DNA of 64,000 bases, from the NCBI RefSeq assembly GCF_033343995.1, contig NZ_CP137573.1, positions 2,637,001 through 2,701,000 on the forward strand. The letters run 5' to 3'. The notes beneath the pieces were generated by a model. That model was not told the DNA's origin and searched no databases. It saw only the letters and a list, made by a program, of their open reading frames with translations. This document shows positions 49,386-55,154 of the stretch, piece after piece. The position numbers were made by a program, and so were the translations under genes. Position 1 is the first letter of the stretch, and every line of letters begins with the position of its first letter. Source of the DNA: Streptomyces sp. HUAS YS2. Lineage in GTDB: Bacteria; Actinomycetota; Actinomycetes; Streptomycetales; Streptomycetaceae.

Positions 49386-50483
49386 TCACGCGCTGCGCTT
49401 GCGCGGGGTGGCCTTCTTCGTCGTGGCCTTCTTGGCCGTCGCCTTCTTCGCGGTCGATTTCGTCGTCGAGGTCGATTTCGTCGTCGCGGTCGACTTGGTC
49501 GCGGTCGATTTCGTCGCCGTCCTCTTCGCGGCCGAGCCCGTACGCGCCGTGGTCTTCTTCGGCTGCGTCGTCTTCTTCGCCGCCGCCCCGGCCCGGCCAC
49601 CGGTCGCCGTGGACTTCTTCGCGCCGGTCTCCTTCGGCGTGCTCCGCGACGTCGCGGCCCGCTTGCGGCCGGCCAGCTCCGTGACCGACGCCGGCTCCTC
49701 GCCGCGGGCCTCCTTCGCCGCACGGACACTGCTTTCCAGGGCAGCCATCAGGTCGATGACCCGGCCGCCGCCCTCCTCCGCCGGCGCGGCCGGCACGACC
49801 GCCTCGCCGCCCTCGGCCTTCGCGGCGATCATCTCCTCGACGGCCTCGCGGTAGTCGTCGTGCAGCGAGTCGAGATCGACCTCGCCCAGCGTCGCCATCA
49901 GCGCGTCCGCCAGGTCGAGTTCGGCCTCCCGTACCGACACCGGCGCCTCCGGCGCCACGCCCTCCGGCTCGCGGACCTCGTCCGGCCAGAGCAGACCGTG
50001 CATGGCGATCACGTCGCCGACCACCCGGAGCATCCCGAGCCGCTCCCGCCCCCGCAGCGCGTACTTCGCCACCGCGACCCGGTCGCTGCGCTTCAGTGCC
50101 TCGCGCAGCAAGGTGTACGGCTTGGCGGCCGGCACGCCGTTGGCGGAGAGGTAGTACGCCGCGTCCATCTGGAGCGGGTCGATCTCGTCGGCCGCCACGA
50201 ACGCGACGATCTCGATCGTCTTGGCGGTCGGCAGCGGCAGCGAGGCCAGGTCCTCGTCCGTGATCGGAATCATGGAGCCGTCGGCGTCCTCGTAGGCCTT
50301 GCCGATGTCCGCCGTCGCCACCTCCTCGCCGTCCAGCTCGCAGACCTTCTTGTAGCGGATCCGGCCGCCGTCCTCGGTGTGGATCTGCCGGAAGGAGACG
50401 GACCGGCTCTCGGTGGCGTTCACGAGCTTGATCGGGATGCTGACCAGCCCGAAGGAGATGGCGCCGTTCCATATGGATCGCAC
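49386..50483 (-). CDS. ku: Non-homologous end-joining protein Ku with histone-like tail
   Basis: The 365-residue homodimeric Ku threads onto DNA ends and recruits the ligase. The core (1-about 255) begins MRSIWNGAISFGLVSIPIKL and includes RIRYKKVCELDGEEV and the bridge region ALLREALKRSDRVAVAKYALRGRERLG-like sequence. The C-terminus (about 275-365) is an extended Lys/Thr/Ala-rich tail with repeated KKAT and KST units, which probably binds DNA. Such basic tails occur in several Streptomyces Ku proteins. It is divergent from the polymerase and ligase genes of the same pathway, 49 bp apart. Confidence 0.96.
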   Translation of the reverse strand: MRSIWNGAISFGLVSIPIKLVNATESRSVSFRQIHTEDGGRIRYKKVCELDGEEVATADIGKAYEDADGSMIPITDEDLASLPLPTAKTIEIVAFVAADEIDPLQMDAAYYLSANGVPAAKPYTLLREALKRSDRVAVAKYALRGRERLGMLRVVGDVIAMHGLLWPDEVREPEGVAPEAPVSVREAELDLADALMATLGEVDLDSLHDDYREAVEEMIAAKAEGGEAVVPAAPAEEGGGRVIDLMAALESSVRAAKEARGEEPASVTELAGRKRAATSRSTPKETGAKKSTATGGRAGAAAKKTTQPKKTTARTGSAAKRTATKSTATKSTATTKSTSTTKSTAKKATAKKATTKKATPRKRSA

Positions 50484-50532
50484 GTTTCATCCCTTTCGTA
50501 CGGGATTGCCGGATTCGTGGGATTCTCATCGT

Positions 50533-51426
50533 ATGACGCCGATCACAGAGGTGGAGGGGCGTCGACTGGCCCTGAGCAATCTGGACAAGGTCCTCCACCC
50601 CGCCACCGGCACCACCAAGGGCGAGCTGCTGCACTACTACGCGACCACGGCCGCCGCGATGCTCCCGCACCTGCGCGACCGGGCGGTCTCCTTCCTGCGC
50701 TATCCGGACGGCCCGGACGGGCAGCTCTTCTTCACCAAGAACCCGCCGCCCGGCACACCCGCCTGGGTGACGACCGCCCCCGTACCCCGCTCCGAGGACC
50801 CGCGGGCCCGGCAGCCGGTGATCCAAGACCTCGCCTCGCTCGTCTGGGCGGCGAACCTCGTCGTGGAGTTCCACACCCACCAATGGCGGATGGAGACCCC
50901 CGCCGTCGCCGACCGGCTCGTCCTCGACCTCGACCCCGGGCCGCCCGCGACGATCGTGGAGTGCTGCGGGGTGGCCCTGTGGCTGCGTGAGCGGCTGGCC
51001 GCGGACGGCCTGACCGCGTACGCCAAGACCTCCGGCGCGAAGGGGCTCCATCTGCTCGTACCGCTGGAGCCCACGCCGTCGGAGCGCGTCTCGGCGTACG
51101 CGCGGGCGCTCGCGGTCGAGGCGGAGGCGGAACTTCCGGCGCACGTCGTGCACCGGATGGCCAAGGCGCTGCGGCGCGGCAAGGTCTTCGTCGACCACAG
51201 CCAGAACGCGGCCGCCAAGACCACGGCGACCCCGTACACCCTGCGGGCGCAGCCCCGGCCGACCGTATCGGCGCCGGTTACCTGGGACGAGGTCGAGGAG
51301 ACGGCGGACTTCGGGGATCCGGAGCGGCTGGTCCTTCTGATGGACGACATCGCGCCACGTCTGGAGCGGTACGGGGATCTGCTCGGGCCGCTGAACGACC
51401 CGGACGCGGCGGGGAGCCTGCCGTGA
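50533..51426 (+). CDS. LigD-type polymerase domain protein (archaeo-eukaryotic primase superfamily)
   Basis: The 297-residue stand-alone PolDom of bacterial NHEJ fills gaps at DNA ends with ribonucleotides preferred. The ATG at 50533 opens MTPITEVEGRRLALSNLDKV. The catalytic aspartates are Asp132 and Asp134 in LVLDLDPGP. FFTKNPPPGTPAWV, WAANLVVEFHTHQWR, TSGAKGLHLLVPL and SQNAAAKTTATPYTLRAQP are family motifs. In mycobacteria this domain is fused to ligase and nuclease; here it is separate and followed by the ligase. Its end (GSLP) and stop codon are part of a threefold DNA repeat. Confidence 0.94.
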   Translation: MTPITEVEGRRLALSNLDKVLHPATGTTKGELLHYYATTAAAMLPHLRDRAVSFLRYPDGPDGQLFFTKNPPPGTPAWVTTAPVPRSEDPRARQPVIQDLASLVWAANLVVEFHTHQWRMETPAVADRLVLDLDPGPPATIVECCGVALWLRERLAADGLTAYAKTSGAKGLHLLVPLEPTPSERVSAYARALAVEAEAELPAHVVHRMAKALRRGKVFVDHSQNAAAKTTATPYTLRAQPRPTVSAPVTWDEVEETADFGDPERLVLLMDDIAPRLERYGDLLGPLNDPDAAGSLP

Positions 51427-51486
51427 GGACCGCCGACGCGGGGAGCCTGCCCGTGAGCCCGGTGCCGAGCGGGAGCCTGCCGTGAG
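51412..51486 (+). repeat. Threefold repeat of a stop/Shine-Dalgarno/start module between polymerase and ligase genes
   Basis: GGGAGCCTGCCGTGAG occurs at 51412-51427, with one extra C at 51441-51457, and again at 51471-51486. The first copy contains the polymerase stop (TGA at 51424) overlapping a GTG. The third contains the ligase GTG start (51482). Each copy carries a GGGAG Shine-Dalgarno-like sequence the right distance before its GTG. Confidence 0.93.
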
Positions 51487-52438
51487 TCCCGCCGGGCGGC
51501 CCGGGTCCACCGGGCTCCCCGCCGGTCTCGATCCCCCGGTGCGGGTGGCGCTCGCGCGGTCGGTGGGGTCGCTGCCGCGCGGGGCGGGGCTCGCGTACGA
51601 GCCGAAGTTCGACGGTCACCGGATGGTGGTCCTCCGGTACCCCGGGGACAAGGTGCTGCTGCAGGCGCGATCCGGCCGTATCGTCACGGCCGCGTTCCCC
51701 GATCTGGCGGAGGCGGCACGGGAGTTGCCGGCCGGCACGGTGCTGGACGGCGAGGTCGTCGTGTGGCGGGAGGGACGCACCGACTTCGCCGCAGTACAGG
51801 CGCGCGCGGCGGCCACGCCCGCGCGGGCGCCCGCCCTCGCGCGCCGGCTGCCCGCCTCGTACGCCGCCTTCGACGTCCTCGCGGAGGGCGGCACGGATCT
51901 GCGGGCGAAACGGTACGAGGTACGGCGCGAACGGCTCGTCGCGCTCCTCGGACCGCTCGGGCCACCCCTCCAGCCGGTGCCGATGACGACGGACCCGGAG
52001 CTGGCCGTGACCTGGTACGAGACGCTGCCGGAGGCCGGGGTCGAGGGCCTGGTCGTGAAGCGGCTCGACTCGACGTACCGGGGCGGCGCGCGACTGTGGG
52101 AGAAGCTCCGGCACACCGACACCCGGGACGCCGTGGTCGTCGGGTACACCGGACCCGCGCAGCGGCCTTCCGCGCTGGTCCTGGTGGTGCCCGACGACGA
52201 CACCCCGGCGCTCTCCAGCCCTCTCGCGCCCGCGCTGCGCATCCAGGCGGGCCGGGCGCTGGGCGTGCCGGCGGCGGGTGCGGAGGACCTCGCCGACGAC
52301 GACTCGACAGTGACCGCCGTCGGCGTCGGCGAGGTCCCGTACCGGCGCGTTCCTCCCGAGCTGACCGCCGAGGTGGCCCGGGGAACCACCCGGCAGCACA
52401 ACCTGATCACCGTCCTGCGCCTGCGCACCACGGAGTGA
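51482..52438 (+). CDS. ATP-dependent DNA ligase
   Basis: The 318-residue ligase seals nicks in NHEJ. The adenylated Lys42 is in motif I (YEPKFDGHRM). Other motifs are QARSGRIVT, VLDGEVVVW (motif III), EGLVVKRLDSTY (motif IV) and LWEKLRHTDTRD (motif V). The C-terminal OB domain ends in GTTRQHNLITVLRLR. The GTG start at 51482 is preceded by GGGAG and overlaps the stop of a 20-codon frame created by the repeat. Together with Ku and the polymerase it completes a three-protein end-joining set. Confidence 0.95.
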   Translation: MSPAGRPGSTGLPAGLDPPVRVALARSVGSLPRGAGLAYEPKFDGHRMVVLRYPGDKVLLQARSGRIVTAAFPDLAEAARELPAGTVLDGEVVVWREGRTDFAAVQARAAATPARAPALARRLPASYAAFDVLAEGGTDLRAKRYEVRRERLVALLGPLGPPLQPVPMTTDPELAVTWYETLPEAGVEGLVVKRLDSTYRGGARLWEKLRHTDTRDAVVVGYTGPAQRPSALVLVVPDDDTPALSSPLAPALRIQAGRALGVPAAGAEDLADDDSTVTAVGVGEVPYRRVPPELTAEVARGTTRQHNLITVLRLRTTE

Positions 52439-52580
52439 CGCGCCCGCGGTGAACACCCGCGTGGCGCAAAGCGAGCGCCCCGCGGGCCCGCCGGGAACCA
52501 CGGCTCGCCGTCGGGTCCTCCTTGCCGTCCGGGTGGTGCACACTTGCCCCCTAGCACAGCGCTCATGGGGAGGTGGGGGC

Positions 52581-55154
52581 ATGTTGGCCGGGATCGATGA
52601 GGTCGACTGGGCCTCGTTGGGACACGCGTACGGCCCGGCCGACGACGTACCGGCACTGCTGCGCGGACTCGCCTCGGACGACCCCGACGCACGGGAGACC
52701 GCCCTCGACGGGCTGTACGGAGCGGTGCACCATCAGGGCGACGTGTACGACTCCACGCTCGCCTGCATCCCCTTCCTGCTCGAACTCGTCGCCGACCCGG
52801 AGGTCCAGGACCGGGGCGGCATCGTCGAGTTGCTCACCAGCATCGGCGGGATCGATCTCGACGGCGACGACGAGCTCGACGAACTCGACCTGGACGAGGA
52901 CGAGTTCGAGGACGCGGCGAACTACGCGATGGCGGCGGCCGGGGTCGCCGCCGGCGCGGAGGTGTTCTTCGGCCTGGTCTTCGACCCCGACCCGGAGGTA
53001 CGGCTCGCCGCGCCGTGCGCCCTCGCCTCGCTCCATCCGGAACCGGCGCGGGTGCTGACCCTGCTGCGCGAGCGGCTGACCGTCGAGAACGACACGCAGG
53101 TCCGGCTCGCGCTGGTCGAGGCGGTCGGGCGGATCGCGCTGCGGCACGAGTCGCTGCACGAGGAGACGGTGGACTGGCTGGCCTTGGTCTCCCGGGCGGC
53201 GCGCGCGCCCGGACTGCGCCTCGCGGCGCTCGCACAGCTCGCGCGCTGCGCGCCGGACCGGCTGCCGGCGGACGTGGTGGTGACGGTGACCGGACTCCTG
53301 GAGGAGGTCCGCCGCGAGGGGCGGTCGCAGACCGCCCAGGCGCCCGCCGACCGCGACCCGCTCGGCACGTGGGGCGACCCCACCGCCCCTTACGGCCTCG
53401 CGGACCCCGCCGGTCCGGCGGCCGGATTCCCCGAACACTCCGGCCGAGCCGTCCCGGAGACCTCCGGTCCGACGACCGGGCTACCGGAGCACCACCCCGA
53501 TCTGGCCGATCTCGCGGACCTGTCCGCACACCCCGACCTCGCCGGGCACCCCGAGCTGTCCGGGCACCCCGACCTCGCCGGGCGCCCCGAACCGTCCGGC
53601 CACACCGACCCGACCGAGCACCCCGAACTCTCCGGGCACCCCGACCCGTCCGGGCAGCCCGCTCCCCCCGGGCCGCACGACCCCTCGGACCCTGCCCAAC
53701 TCCCCAAGCACACCGAGCACACCGAGCACTCCGAACTCCCCGACCTGCCCGACCTCCAGGCGCTCGGCGACCTCACCGATGTCGACGACCTGACCGGCCT
53801 CTCCGACCTCGCCGACCTCGCCGACCTGGCCGATGGCGCCGACGGCGCCGCCCCGCACCCCACCCTCCTCGGGTACCTACGGGAGTTCGACGACGAGCGG
53901 CGGCGGGATCGGACCACCCCGTGGACCGACGAGCTGCTCCGCACCCTGCACACCGCGCTCGACGACCGGGTCGACGACCGGATCGCGCTGATCGTCGCCC
54001 AGTTGCAGAGCCCCGACTGGGGACAGCGGGCCGACGCGATCTGGATGTGCGGCGGGCTGATCCGGGTGTGGCGCGGCCGGTACGAGGAGGTCGTGCGGCT
54101 GGTCGGCGAGCAGCTCGCCGACCCCGAGCCGCGGGTGCGGGAGGCCGCCGCCTCCTGGCTGAAGGACCTGTTCGAGCTGGCCGGCCCCGCCACGGACGCC
54201 CTCGCGGCGCGGGTGGCCACCGAGGCGCGGCCCTGGATGCGGGAGCGGATCGGTCCCGACGGGGCGCTGCTCGCGCTGGCCCGGGCGGGCGACGCCCGTG
54301 CCGTACCGGTGCTGGCCCGGGCGCTGGAACGGCCCGAGCCGTGCGACGACCTGCTGTACACCGTGCCGTTGCTCGGCCCGGCCGCGGCGCCGCTCGCCCC
54401 GGTGCTGCGGCGCAGGCTGGGCCAGGTGGAACTGGACGACGCCCTGTTCGACCACGCGGGCCCGCTGCTCTTCGCGCTGACCGGCCTGCGGGCCGGGCAG
54501 GCGGTGCCGGAGGTGCTGCGGGTGCTGCGCGGTGCGCCCGCGTACCGGCGGGACTGGGTGCACGAGTCGGCGCTGCGCGCGCTGGCCGCCTTCGGGCCCG
54601 CCGCGCACGAGGCGGTGCCGGACCTGCGCCGGCTCCTGGACTGCGGCACGGCCGCGGTGGCCACCGGGGCCGCGCGCGCCCTGTGGGCGGTGACCGGCGA
54701 GACCGGGCTCGCCCTGCCGGTGCTGGAGCGCTGGCTGGGGACGGACCGCGAGACGGGCGAGCGGCGCTCGGCCGCCGCCGCGCTCGGCGCGATCGGACCG
54801 GCGGCGGCCTCGGTCGCGCCCGCGCTGCGCCGCTGCCTGAGCGCGCAGGACCTGTGGCTGCGGGTCGAGGGCGCGATGGCGCTGTGGCAGGTCTCCGGCG
54901 ACACCGAGGCCGCTCTTCCGGTACTGCTCGCCGGCTGGGAGGAGAACCGTCACACCAGGGTCAGGATCGCGGAGTGCCTGGCGGAGATGGGCCCGGCGGC
55001 GGCGGGCGCGGAGCCGGTGATCCGTACGGAACTGGCCCGCCGGCGCCGTCACAACGTGGTGGCCGGCGGCTACAGCGGACACGACGTGCGGGAGGACGAG
55101 AAGCTGCTGACGCTGTGCCGGGCAGCACTGGCCCGGATGGAGCGGGACGCCTGA
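52581..55154 (+). CDS. Large HEAT-repeat protein with an internal hexapeptide array
   Basis: The 857-residue protein starts at the ATG at 52581, preceded by GGGGAGGTGGG. Helical HEAT/PBS-lyase-type repeats occupy about 20-260 and 440-850 (for example AAPCALASLHPEPARVLTLL and AAAALGAIGPAAASVAPALR). They form a solenoid suited to protein binding. Between them is a non-conserved Pro/Asp/His-rich stretch that includes eight hexapeptides of the type HPDLAG (residues about 317-364) and a later Leu/Asp-rich run. No catalytic motif is seen. Similar proteins are common in Streptomyces and lack a known role. It is transcribed from a promoter after the NHEJ genes. Confidence 0.8.
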   Translation: MLAGIDEVDWASLGHAYGPADDVPALLRGLASDDPDARETALDGLYGAVHHQGDVYDSTLACIPFLLELVADPEVQDRGGIVELLTSIGGIDLDGDDELDELDLDEDEFEDAANYAMAAAGVAAGAEVFFGLVFDPDPEVRLAAPCALASLHPEPARVLTLLRERLTVENDTQVRLALVEAVGRIALRHESLHEETVDWLALVSRAARAPGLRLAALAQLARCAPDRLPADVVVTVTGLLEEVRREGRSQTAQAPADRDPLGTWGDPTAPYGLADPAGPAAGFPEHSGRAVPETSGPTTGLPEHHPDLADLADLSAHPDLAGHPELSGHPDLAGRPEPSGHTDPTEHPELSGHPDPSGQPAPPGPHDPSDPAQLPKHTEHTEHSELPDLPDLQALGDLTDVDDLTGLSDLADLADLADGADGAAPHPTLLGYLREFDDERRRDRTTPWTDELLRTLHTALDDRVDDRIALIVAQLQSPDWGQRADAIWMCGGLIRVWRGRYEEVVRLVGEQLADPEPRVREAAASWLKDLFELAGPATDALAARVATEARPWMRERIGPDGALLALARAGDARAVPVLARALERPEPCDDLLYTVPLLGPAAAPLAPVLRRRLGQVELDDALFDHAGPLLFALTGLRAGQAVPEVLRVLRGAPAYRRDWVHESALRALAAFGPAAHEAVPDLRRLLDCGTAAVATGAARALWAVTGETGLALPVLERWLGTDRETGERRSAAAALGAIGPAAASVAPALRRCLSAQDLWLRVEGAMALWQVSGDTEAALPVLLAGWEENRHTRVRIAECLAEMGPAAAGAEPVIRTELARRRRHNVVAGGYSGHDVREDEKLLTLCRAALARMERDA
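53529..53672. repeat. 18-bp coding minisatellite in the HEAT-repeat gene
   Basis: Eight consecutive 18-bp units encode HPDLAG, HPELSG, HPDLAG, RPEPSG, HTDPTE, HPELSG, HPDPSG and QPAPPG. The period keeps the reading frame. It lies in a proline-rich linker between HEAT blocks. Confidence 0.9.

Follow-up and report, generated by a model that had tools for sequence, protein, structure and literature searches.

A probable translational relay between the NHEJ polymerase and ligase genes of Streptomyces sp. HUAS YS2

Mycobacterial interspersed repetitive units (MIRU) were reportedly described by Supply et al. in 1997. In a MIRU a small ORF sits at the start codon, and the downstream gene is coupled to it at a spacing of -4 nt (PMC12548453). 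The units are found in tandem with variable copy number, at 41 places in H37Rv (PMC2734929). Coupling by termination and reinitiation at a -4 overlap of the type ATGA or GTGA is known for pairs of genes (PMC6728339, PMC10666635). Using reporters in E. coli and Haloferax, reinitiation was found nearly abolished at an intergenic distance of about 20 nt, and in the discussion for E. coli, the final 15 nt of the gene upstream are said to be enough for reinitiation (PMC10666635). In the axe-txe operon, a minigene of two codons raises the translation of the next gene; frame and distance matter there, and protection of the mRNA was proposed (PMC8708949). For Streptomyces, a core NHEJ locus of kuA and polK was described, with ligD nearby in S. 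cattleya; the passages of that paper yielded no account of the junction between polymerase and ligase, and "overlap" refers there to protein fragments (PMC5124664).

Here, we analyzed such a locus in a stretch of 64,000 nucleotides from Streptomyces sp. HUAS YS2 (contig NZ_CP137573.1, positions 2,637,001 to 2,701,000 of the forward strand), called the window. Coordinates are summarized in Table 1. As judged from the profiles PF02735, PF21686 and PF01068, Ku, a LigD-type polymerase domain and an ATP-dependent ligase adjoin in the window. The query for the polymerase profiles comprised positions 50539-51423, and ATG 50533 was taken as the start within the ORF 50377-51426. With the NHEJ ligase models of NCBIfam, the ligase scored under the curated thresholds. 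The locus corresponds to the Streptomyces kuA-polK core with an added ligase, as reported for S. cattleya, the name polK resting on position rather than on a tree. It shares Ku and separate genes for the polymerase domain and the ligase with the published locus (PMC5124664). The stop codon of the ligase also lies within a GTGA (52435-52452), which opens a 5-codon frame with a TGA overlapping GTG 52449. This GTG belongs to the frame of the following ORF (52449-55154). A likelier start for the next gene is ATG 52581 behind GGGGAGGTGGGGG, and the 5-codon frame may be chance.

Table 1. Features at the polymerase-ligase junction of the window and its neighbouring genes.
Feature	Position	Strand	Remarks
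Ku (kuA-like), divergent neighbour	49386..50483	-	PF02735; TIGR02772 above cut-off
LigD-type primase-polymerase (polK-like), upstream gene	50533..51426	+	PF21686, E 3.7e-79; TIGR02778 above cut-off; TGA 51424-51426 inside GTGA
Tandem array	51409..51494	+	Tandem Repeats Finder: 29-bp unit, 2.9 copies, score 105
Repeat copy 1, GGGAGCCTGCCGTGAG, exact	51412..51427	+	SD-like GGGGAG 51411-51416, polymerase TGA, overlapping GTG 51423
Putative relay mini-ORF, 20 codons	51423..51485	+	NTGA overlap at both ends
Repeat copy 2, 17-bp GGGAGCCTGCCCGTGAG, one extra C	51441..51457	+	GTG 51453 in frame with GTG 51423
Repeat copy 3, GGGAGCCTGCCGTGAG, exact	51471..51486	+	SD-like GGGAG 6 nt before ligase GTG 51482; TGA 51483-51485 closes the mini-frame
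Stand-alone ATP-dependent DNA ligase (adenylation domain), downstream gene	51482..52438	+	PF01068, E 8.2e-25

Polymerase TGA and ligase GTG are separated by 55 nt (59 nt from GTG to GTG). The original prediction had seen a 16-bp unit three times at this junction. All three sites were recovered, but the middle copy is inexact, so that two copies are exact and one carries an insertion. The assignment of the polymerase TGA with its overlapping GTG to copy 1 and of the ligase GTG to copy 3 was borne out by the sequence and the list of ORFs. GTGA sites start at 51423, 51453 and 51482, with a spacing of 30 and 29. The mini-frame from GTG 51423 translates to VRTADAGSLPVSPVPSGSLP and ends with the TGA that overlaps the ligase start; the GTG of copy 2 lies inside it. 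Sequence and frame thus confirmed a mini-frame with GTGA overlap at both ends: the -4 overlap (shared NTGA) is present at 51423 and 51482 and absent between polymerase and ligase directly. The extra C of copy 2 had been credited with opening this 20-codon frame. The frame itself stood, but the C is not the origin of the coupling, because units of 29 bp (2 mod 3) chain anyway. In a pure repeat the GTG of copy 1 leads to the TGA of copy 2 and the GTG of copy 2 to the TGA of copy 3, giving two chaining 10-codon frames. By the inserted C one unit becomes 30 bp, the GTG of copy 2 falls in frame and both short frames fuse into 20 codons. A like fusion was found in a related junction (L144), with units of 24 and 23 within a 23-bp array. 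The phase thus survives the insertion of the C.

From the sequence and its relatives, we read the junction as a translational relay for termination-reinitiation coupling, with a probability of roughly 0.75. The direct 4-nt NTGA overlap, which prevails among the Streptomyces junctions compared, would let the ribosome terminating on the polymerase reinitiate on the ligase. Local tandem duplication of the segment with SD and TGA/GTG would then have moved the ligase GTG away to the present distance, the GTG at the polymerase stop would have opened a mini-ORF ending on the ligase start, and coupling would have survived since the unit length is 2 mod 3. Accordingly arranged ribosome traffic would stop at the polymerase, restart at 51423, produce a 20-residue throw-away peptide, stop at 51483 and restart on the ligase. 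Junction duplications would in general persist when they are 2 mod 3, giving a relay, or 0 mod 3, giving a longer ligase or a longer relay ORF. As reinitiation was nearly lost at about 20 nt in the reporters (PMC10666635), a gap of 55 nt without a relay should uncouple the genes, and the relay would restore -4 overlaps. Ribosomes presumably use the relay, selection on coupling would remove out-of-phase duplications, and the peptide of the mini-ORF probably has no function. We think that selection acts to keep the coupling, with in-phase duplications being tolerated. The mini-frame might instead be read by frameshifting ribosomes and yield a polymerase-ligase fusion as in one-piece LigD, and LigD of other bacteria does fuse both domains (PMC5124664). 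Such a programmed frameshift would, however, need two frame changes in the window and five in one relative (L037), and every chain still ends on a start codon of the ligase. We consider it extremely improbable.

For comparison within Streptomyces, 266 records (the window slice and 265 loci, numbered L) were used, which yielded 135 distinct polymerase-ligase junctions. The sources of the loci include the best 80 of 288 stretches and 95 further regions. The polymerase was found in 356 of 392 genomes, and 30 of the best places among these were taken as loci; L266-L270 stand outside the counts. Left out of the 266 records were 46 with identical junction DNA, one without a usable polymerase match and 84 Streptomyces polymerase loci in which no ligase match adjoined the polymerase. 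Using identity to the ligase of the window as cutoff, ligases were grouped into type A (at least 54.8%) and type B or "distant" (below 50%; 38-48% in 39 junctions), of which the latter may comprise more than one family. The commonest arrangement was a ligase start overlapping the polymerase stop directly as NTGA, found in 108 of the 135 junctions (85 with type A, 23 with type B ligase). In 19 junctions the ligase starts 16-229 nt past the polymerase stop, and a chain of small ORFs joined by NTGA leads in phase to the ligase. Chains were followed from the NTG overlapping the stop to the next stop, and this was repeated until the ligase frame was reached. Type A relays were observed in 11 cases (window, L026, L053, L055, L094, L104, L122, L251, L252, L260, L261), type B relays in eight (L035, L037, L039, L041, L144, L047, L048, L158). 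The other eight junctions were neither direct nor relay. On rechecking, the ligase frames of all 127 direct and relay junctions were found to start with ATG, GTG or TTG and to stay open for at least 200 codons, except two ending with the record; the starts are predictions, uncertain in some distant-type ligases with long low-complexity N-termini. The ligases of L035, L037, L039, L041 and L144 carry Gly/Pro/Arg-rich low-complexity N-terminal extensions of about 80-125 residues ahead of the first aligned part.

Among the displaced junctions, NTGA chains were thus found in 11 of 11 with type A and in 8 of 16 with type B ligase, the 16 including one (L049) whose N-masked sequence allows no verdict. 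Two points of the original prediction gain from this comparison. Its coupling interpretation is supported, as the 135 junctions do not share the triplication, displaced relatives carry other repeats or spacers, and their frames chain in the proportions just given. Its description of the junction as a natural experiment in operon spacing fits, with 0, 1, 2 or 4 relay ORFs occurring.

Origins were counted on a quickly built maximum-likelihood tree of the polymerase gene, with 135 rows and 846 columns and without bootstrap. Leaving out the eight non-relay junctions and L026, which sits beside relay L261 and adds no origin, parsimony gave 14 changes between relay and direct. Type A relays form 10 separate rows and type B relays four groups; starred branches force at least nine and at least four, respectively, and L094 and L104, placed together in an open fork, might go back to a single origin. 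As many relay rows group with direct rows, the state changed repeatedly, the parsimony being without direction.

The chance background was estimated from 1.26 Mb of four genomes, with genes called by a home-made codon-usage gene finder and not taken from annotation. Among 707 neighbours on the same strand, 138 showed a direct NTGA overlap and 481 were displaced. Three polymerase-ligase relays flagged by the gene finder were removed, which left 478 displaced pairs. A fourth relay (G161) was missed, the ligase being called too late and more than 300 nt away, and the background rate may therefore be somewhat too low. A chain to the next gene was found for 23 of the 478 displaced pairs, or 23 of the 82 with NTGA at the upstream stop and a gap of 5-300 nt. 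As control, 41 of 235 displaced pairs with the non-start CTGA formed a chain (versus 23/82, Fisher p 0.054); relays elsewhere in these genomes are a weak hint at most. For the polymerase-ligase junction, 14 of 20 inferred displacement origins are relays (versus 23/478, Fisher p 3e-13, with the masked L049 among the six failures). The 14 relay origins alone against 23/82 gave p 2.6e-7, in a kinder test that omits the non-chaining cases. Taking frame alone at one half, values of 6e-5 for 14/14 and 0.015 for 14/18 were obtained, the latter modest once NTGA-bearing failures enter. Each of the long relay ORFs of 32-78 codons (L048, L158, L122, L260, L053, L104) could be chance, given a background of 17-28%.

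These numbers bear on a neutral explanation, by which slippage duplicated a GC-rich patch as a minisatellite, the ligase is initiated de novo at the SD/GTG of copy 3, or translated from a separate transcript, and the mini-frame has no meaning. A single duplication lands in relay phase one time in three, chains occur in the background at the frequencies given above, and an SD is kept 6 nt before the GTG of copy 3, which makes de novo initiation of the ligase possible. On the other hand, every displaced type A junction is in phase, relays at this gene pair occur far above background, and the exact overlap is kept in 108 of the 135 junctions. We hold neutrality to be unlikely.

The displaced junctions that fail to chain (L028, L070, L064, L088, L207, L240, L249, L049) encode ligases 38-44% identical to that of the window. 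In L028 and L070 the polymerase stop lies outside an NTGA, and the ligase frames of L028, L064, L070, L088 and L207 hold their own MDE-type leader. Polymerase and ligase can therefore adjoin without a relay, as in these eight cases, and do so only with distant ligases. By eye, L064 shows what looks like the broken remains of a type A ligase immediately behind the polymerase stop; a distant-type ligase, which brings its own leader, comes next. In the starred set of 32 polymerase rows that holds the window, 30 of the 31 relatives possess a distant-type ligase, while the window and S. lateritius (L032) possess type A. In the clade of the window, the ligase seems to have been exchanged, as far as the sequences tell, with NTGA overlap or relay kept except for the masked L049.

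In total, 25 relay ORFs of 7-78 codons were counted in the 19 relay junctions, one in each of 15 junctions, two in three and four in one. They restart at GTG (14) or ATG (11), and the permitted TTG was found in none. The repeats differ between lineages and measure 29/30 bp (window), 23 bp (L035 clade), 20 bp (L047) or 66 bp (L158); L122 holds 15-bp repeats within a 77-codon relay. Several units resemble the local 3' end of the polymerase gene. Main array periods were 29, 23 and 20 (2 mod 3) or 24, 66, 15 and 9 (0 mod 3, within one longer relay ORF); L053 has a period of 31 (1 mod 3), with the total still in phase. The output of the repeat program also holds multiples of the main periods and short low-scoring units. 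Period arithmetic was discarded as a stand-alone proof, the arrays being too few to exclude chance, and the weight rests on the chain test. Aligning the multi-unit arrays (L037, L035, L144, window), the TGA was invariant and the first base of NTGA only A or G, and 5-12 of 20 flanking columns varied. In the window, L035, L037, L039, L041, L144, L047, L158, L055 and L251, the 20 nt before the first NTGA and before a later one were so alike that no more than 2.5% of 200 shuffles did as well; this involved 25 comparisons, unadjusted, and the remaining junctions were not clearly alike. With the likeness confined to those junctions, self-duplication of the junction is supported for six of the 14 origins only.

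Within one clade the number of relay ORFs is 1, 1, 2, 2 and 4 (L039, L041, L035, L144, L037), with the phase kept throughout and the variation seen between species only. The relay reading could be extended in this direction: the number of steps might itself be selected, with each restart passing on part of the ribosomes and so setting the ratio of ligase to polymerase. Besides these close relatives, a longer rnc-fpg1 tandem array of M. tuberculosis, which went with modestly higher fpg1 mRNA (PMC2734929), speaks for such a rheostat. Tolerance explains the pattern equally well, however, and 108 of the 135 junctions have no relay at all. We regard this extension as rather unlikely.

Signals for ribosome binding were compared with shuffled sequences. 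Of the 25 internal restart sites, 52% had an SD match of at least 4 nt, versus 24% in shuffles, and 22 of the 25 paired better with the anti-SD than their own shuffles. The first NTG of the relay junctions, at the polymerase stop, showed no SD excess by motif count (26% versus 28% shuffled); by duplex energy 16 of these 19 sites beat their shuffles. A perfect 12-nt inverted repeat connects the SD region of copy 1 (51407-51418) with ligase codons 11-15 (51513-51524). Folding of 51390-51545 gave -93.2 kcal/mol, compared with a mean of -85.8 for shuffled sequences (z -1.65), and 14 of the 200 shuffles folded at least as stably. These two arms could hide an SD, but the signal is weak and an RNA structural switch is not proposed. 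A simple consensus scan of 50400-52600 found no promoter- or terminator-like sites, and such a scan expects almost none in such DNA.

We also considered that a MIRU-like mobile element was inserted at the NTGA site. The anatomy is the same, a small ORF with coupling by a 4-nt overlap (PMC12548453), and tandem copies vary in number in both. In the whole genome, the 16-mer GGGAGCCTGCCGTGAG has two exact matches, both at the junction. Allowing up to two mismatches, 10 matches were found in the genome, including both junction copies, versus 12 for the reversed control. With the 91-bp array as query, 41 matches had an E of at most 10; next to itself, the strongest of them reached 41.9 bits, 81% identity and E 1.7e-4. 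For the 23-bp unit of the L035 clade, the search of four genomes gave five junction matches and eight others, all with three mismatches, versus three in the control. A dispersed MIRU-like element is not supported, as no close copy was found elsewhere in the genome of the window, nor one of the 23-bp unit in those four genomes. Unlike the dispersed MIRU, the junction units differ between lineages, several in likeness to the local polymerase gene, and about six of the 14 origins look duplicated from the junction. Insertion of a mobile element is thus very unlikely. The junction works like a MIRU but is classed as a locally born relay, a variant of stop-start coupling.

Compared with -4 overlap pairs (PMC6728339, PMC10666635), each link of the chain is likewise a 4-nt NTGA, often with an SD. 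The overlap partner differs, being a relay ORF of 7-78 codons, with the genes 16-229 nt apart. The axe-txe minigene (PMC8708949) is similar as a tiny ORF acting on the next gene; it differs in its two codons and in the proposed mRNA protection, and the abstract of that paper does not mention a bridging of two genes at both ends. Among the papers listed from the open-access literature, no title or opening of an abstract told of relay ORFs at this junction or of locally born relays.

One might go further and regard locally born, self-expanding relays as a general, unannotated form of coupling in high-GC bacteria as the spacer grows, with the number of steps serving as a heritable ligase:polymerase rheostat; we put this forward as a doubtful possibility. 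In that case arrays might also give the operon some protection against frameshifts, as one base inserted into a unit just joins two relay ORFs. If the relay reading is true, the Streptomyces junctions would amount to about 14 natural experiments, largely independent of one another: the spacing grew and the chain of stops and starts was kept, as in all displaced type A junctions. Such a comparison would argue for selection on the overlap itself and not simply on proximity, in agreement with the reporters (PMC10666635). The junctions with 0, 1, 2 and 4 steps would form a dose series for the reinitiation per step in an actinomycete. MIRU-like anatomy could then be born on the spot, with no mobile element involved, and the role of very short ORFs may be confined to carrying ribosomes.
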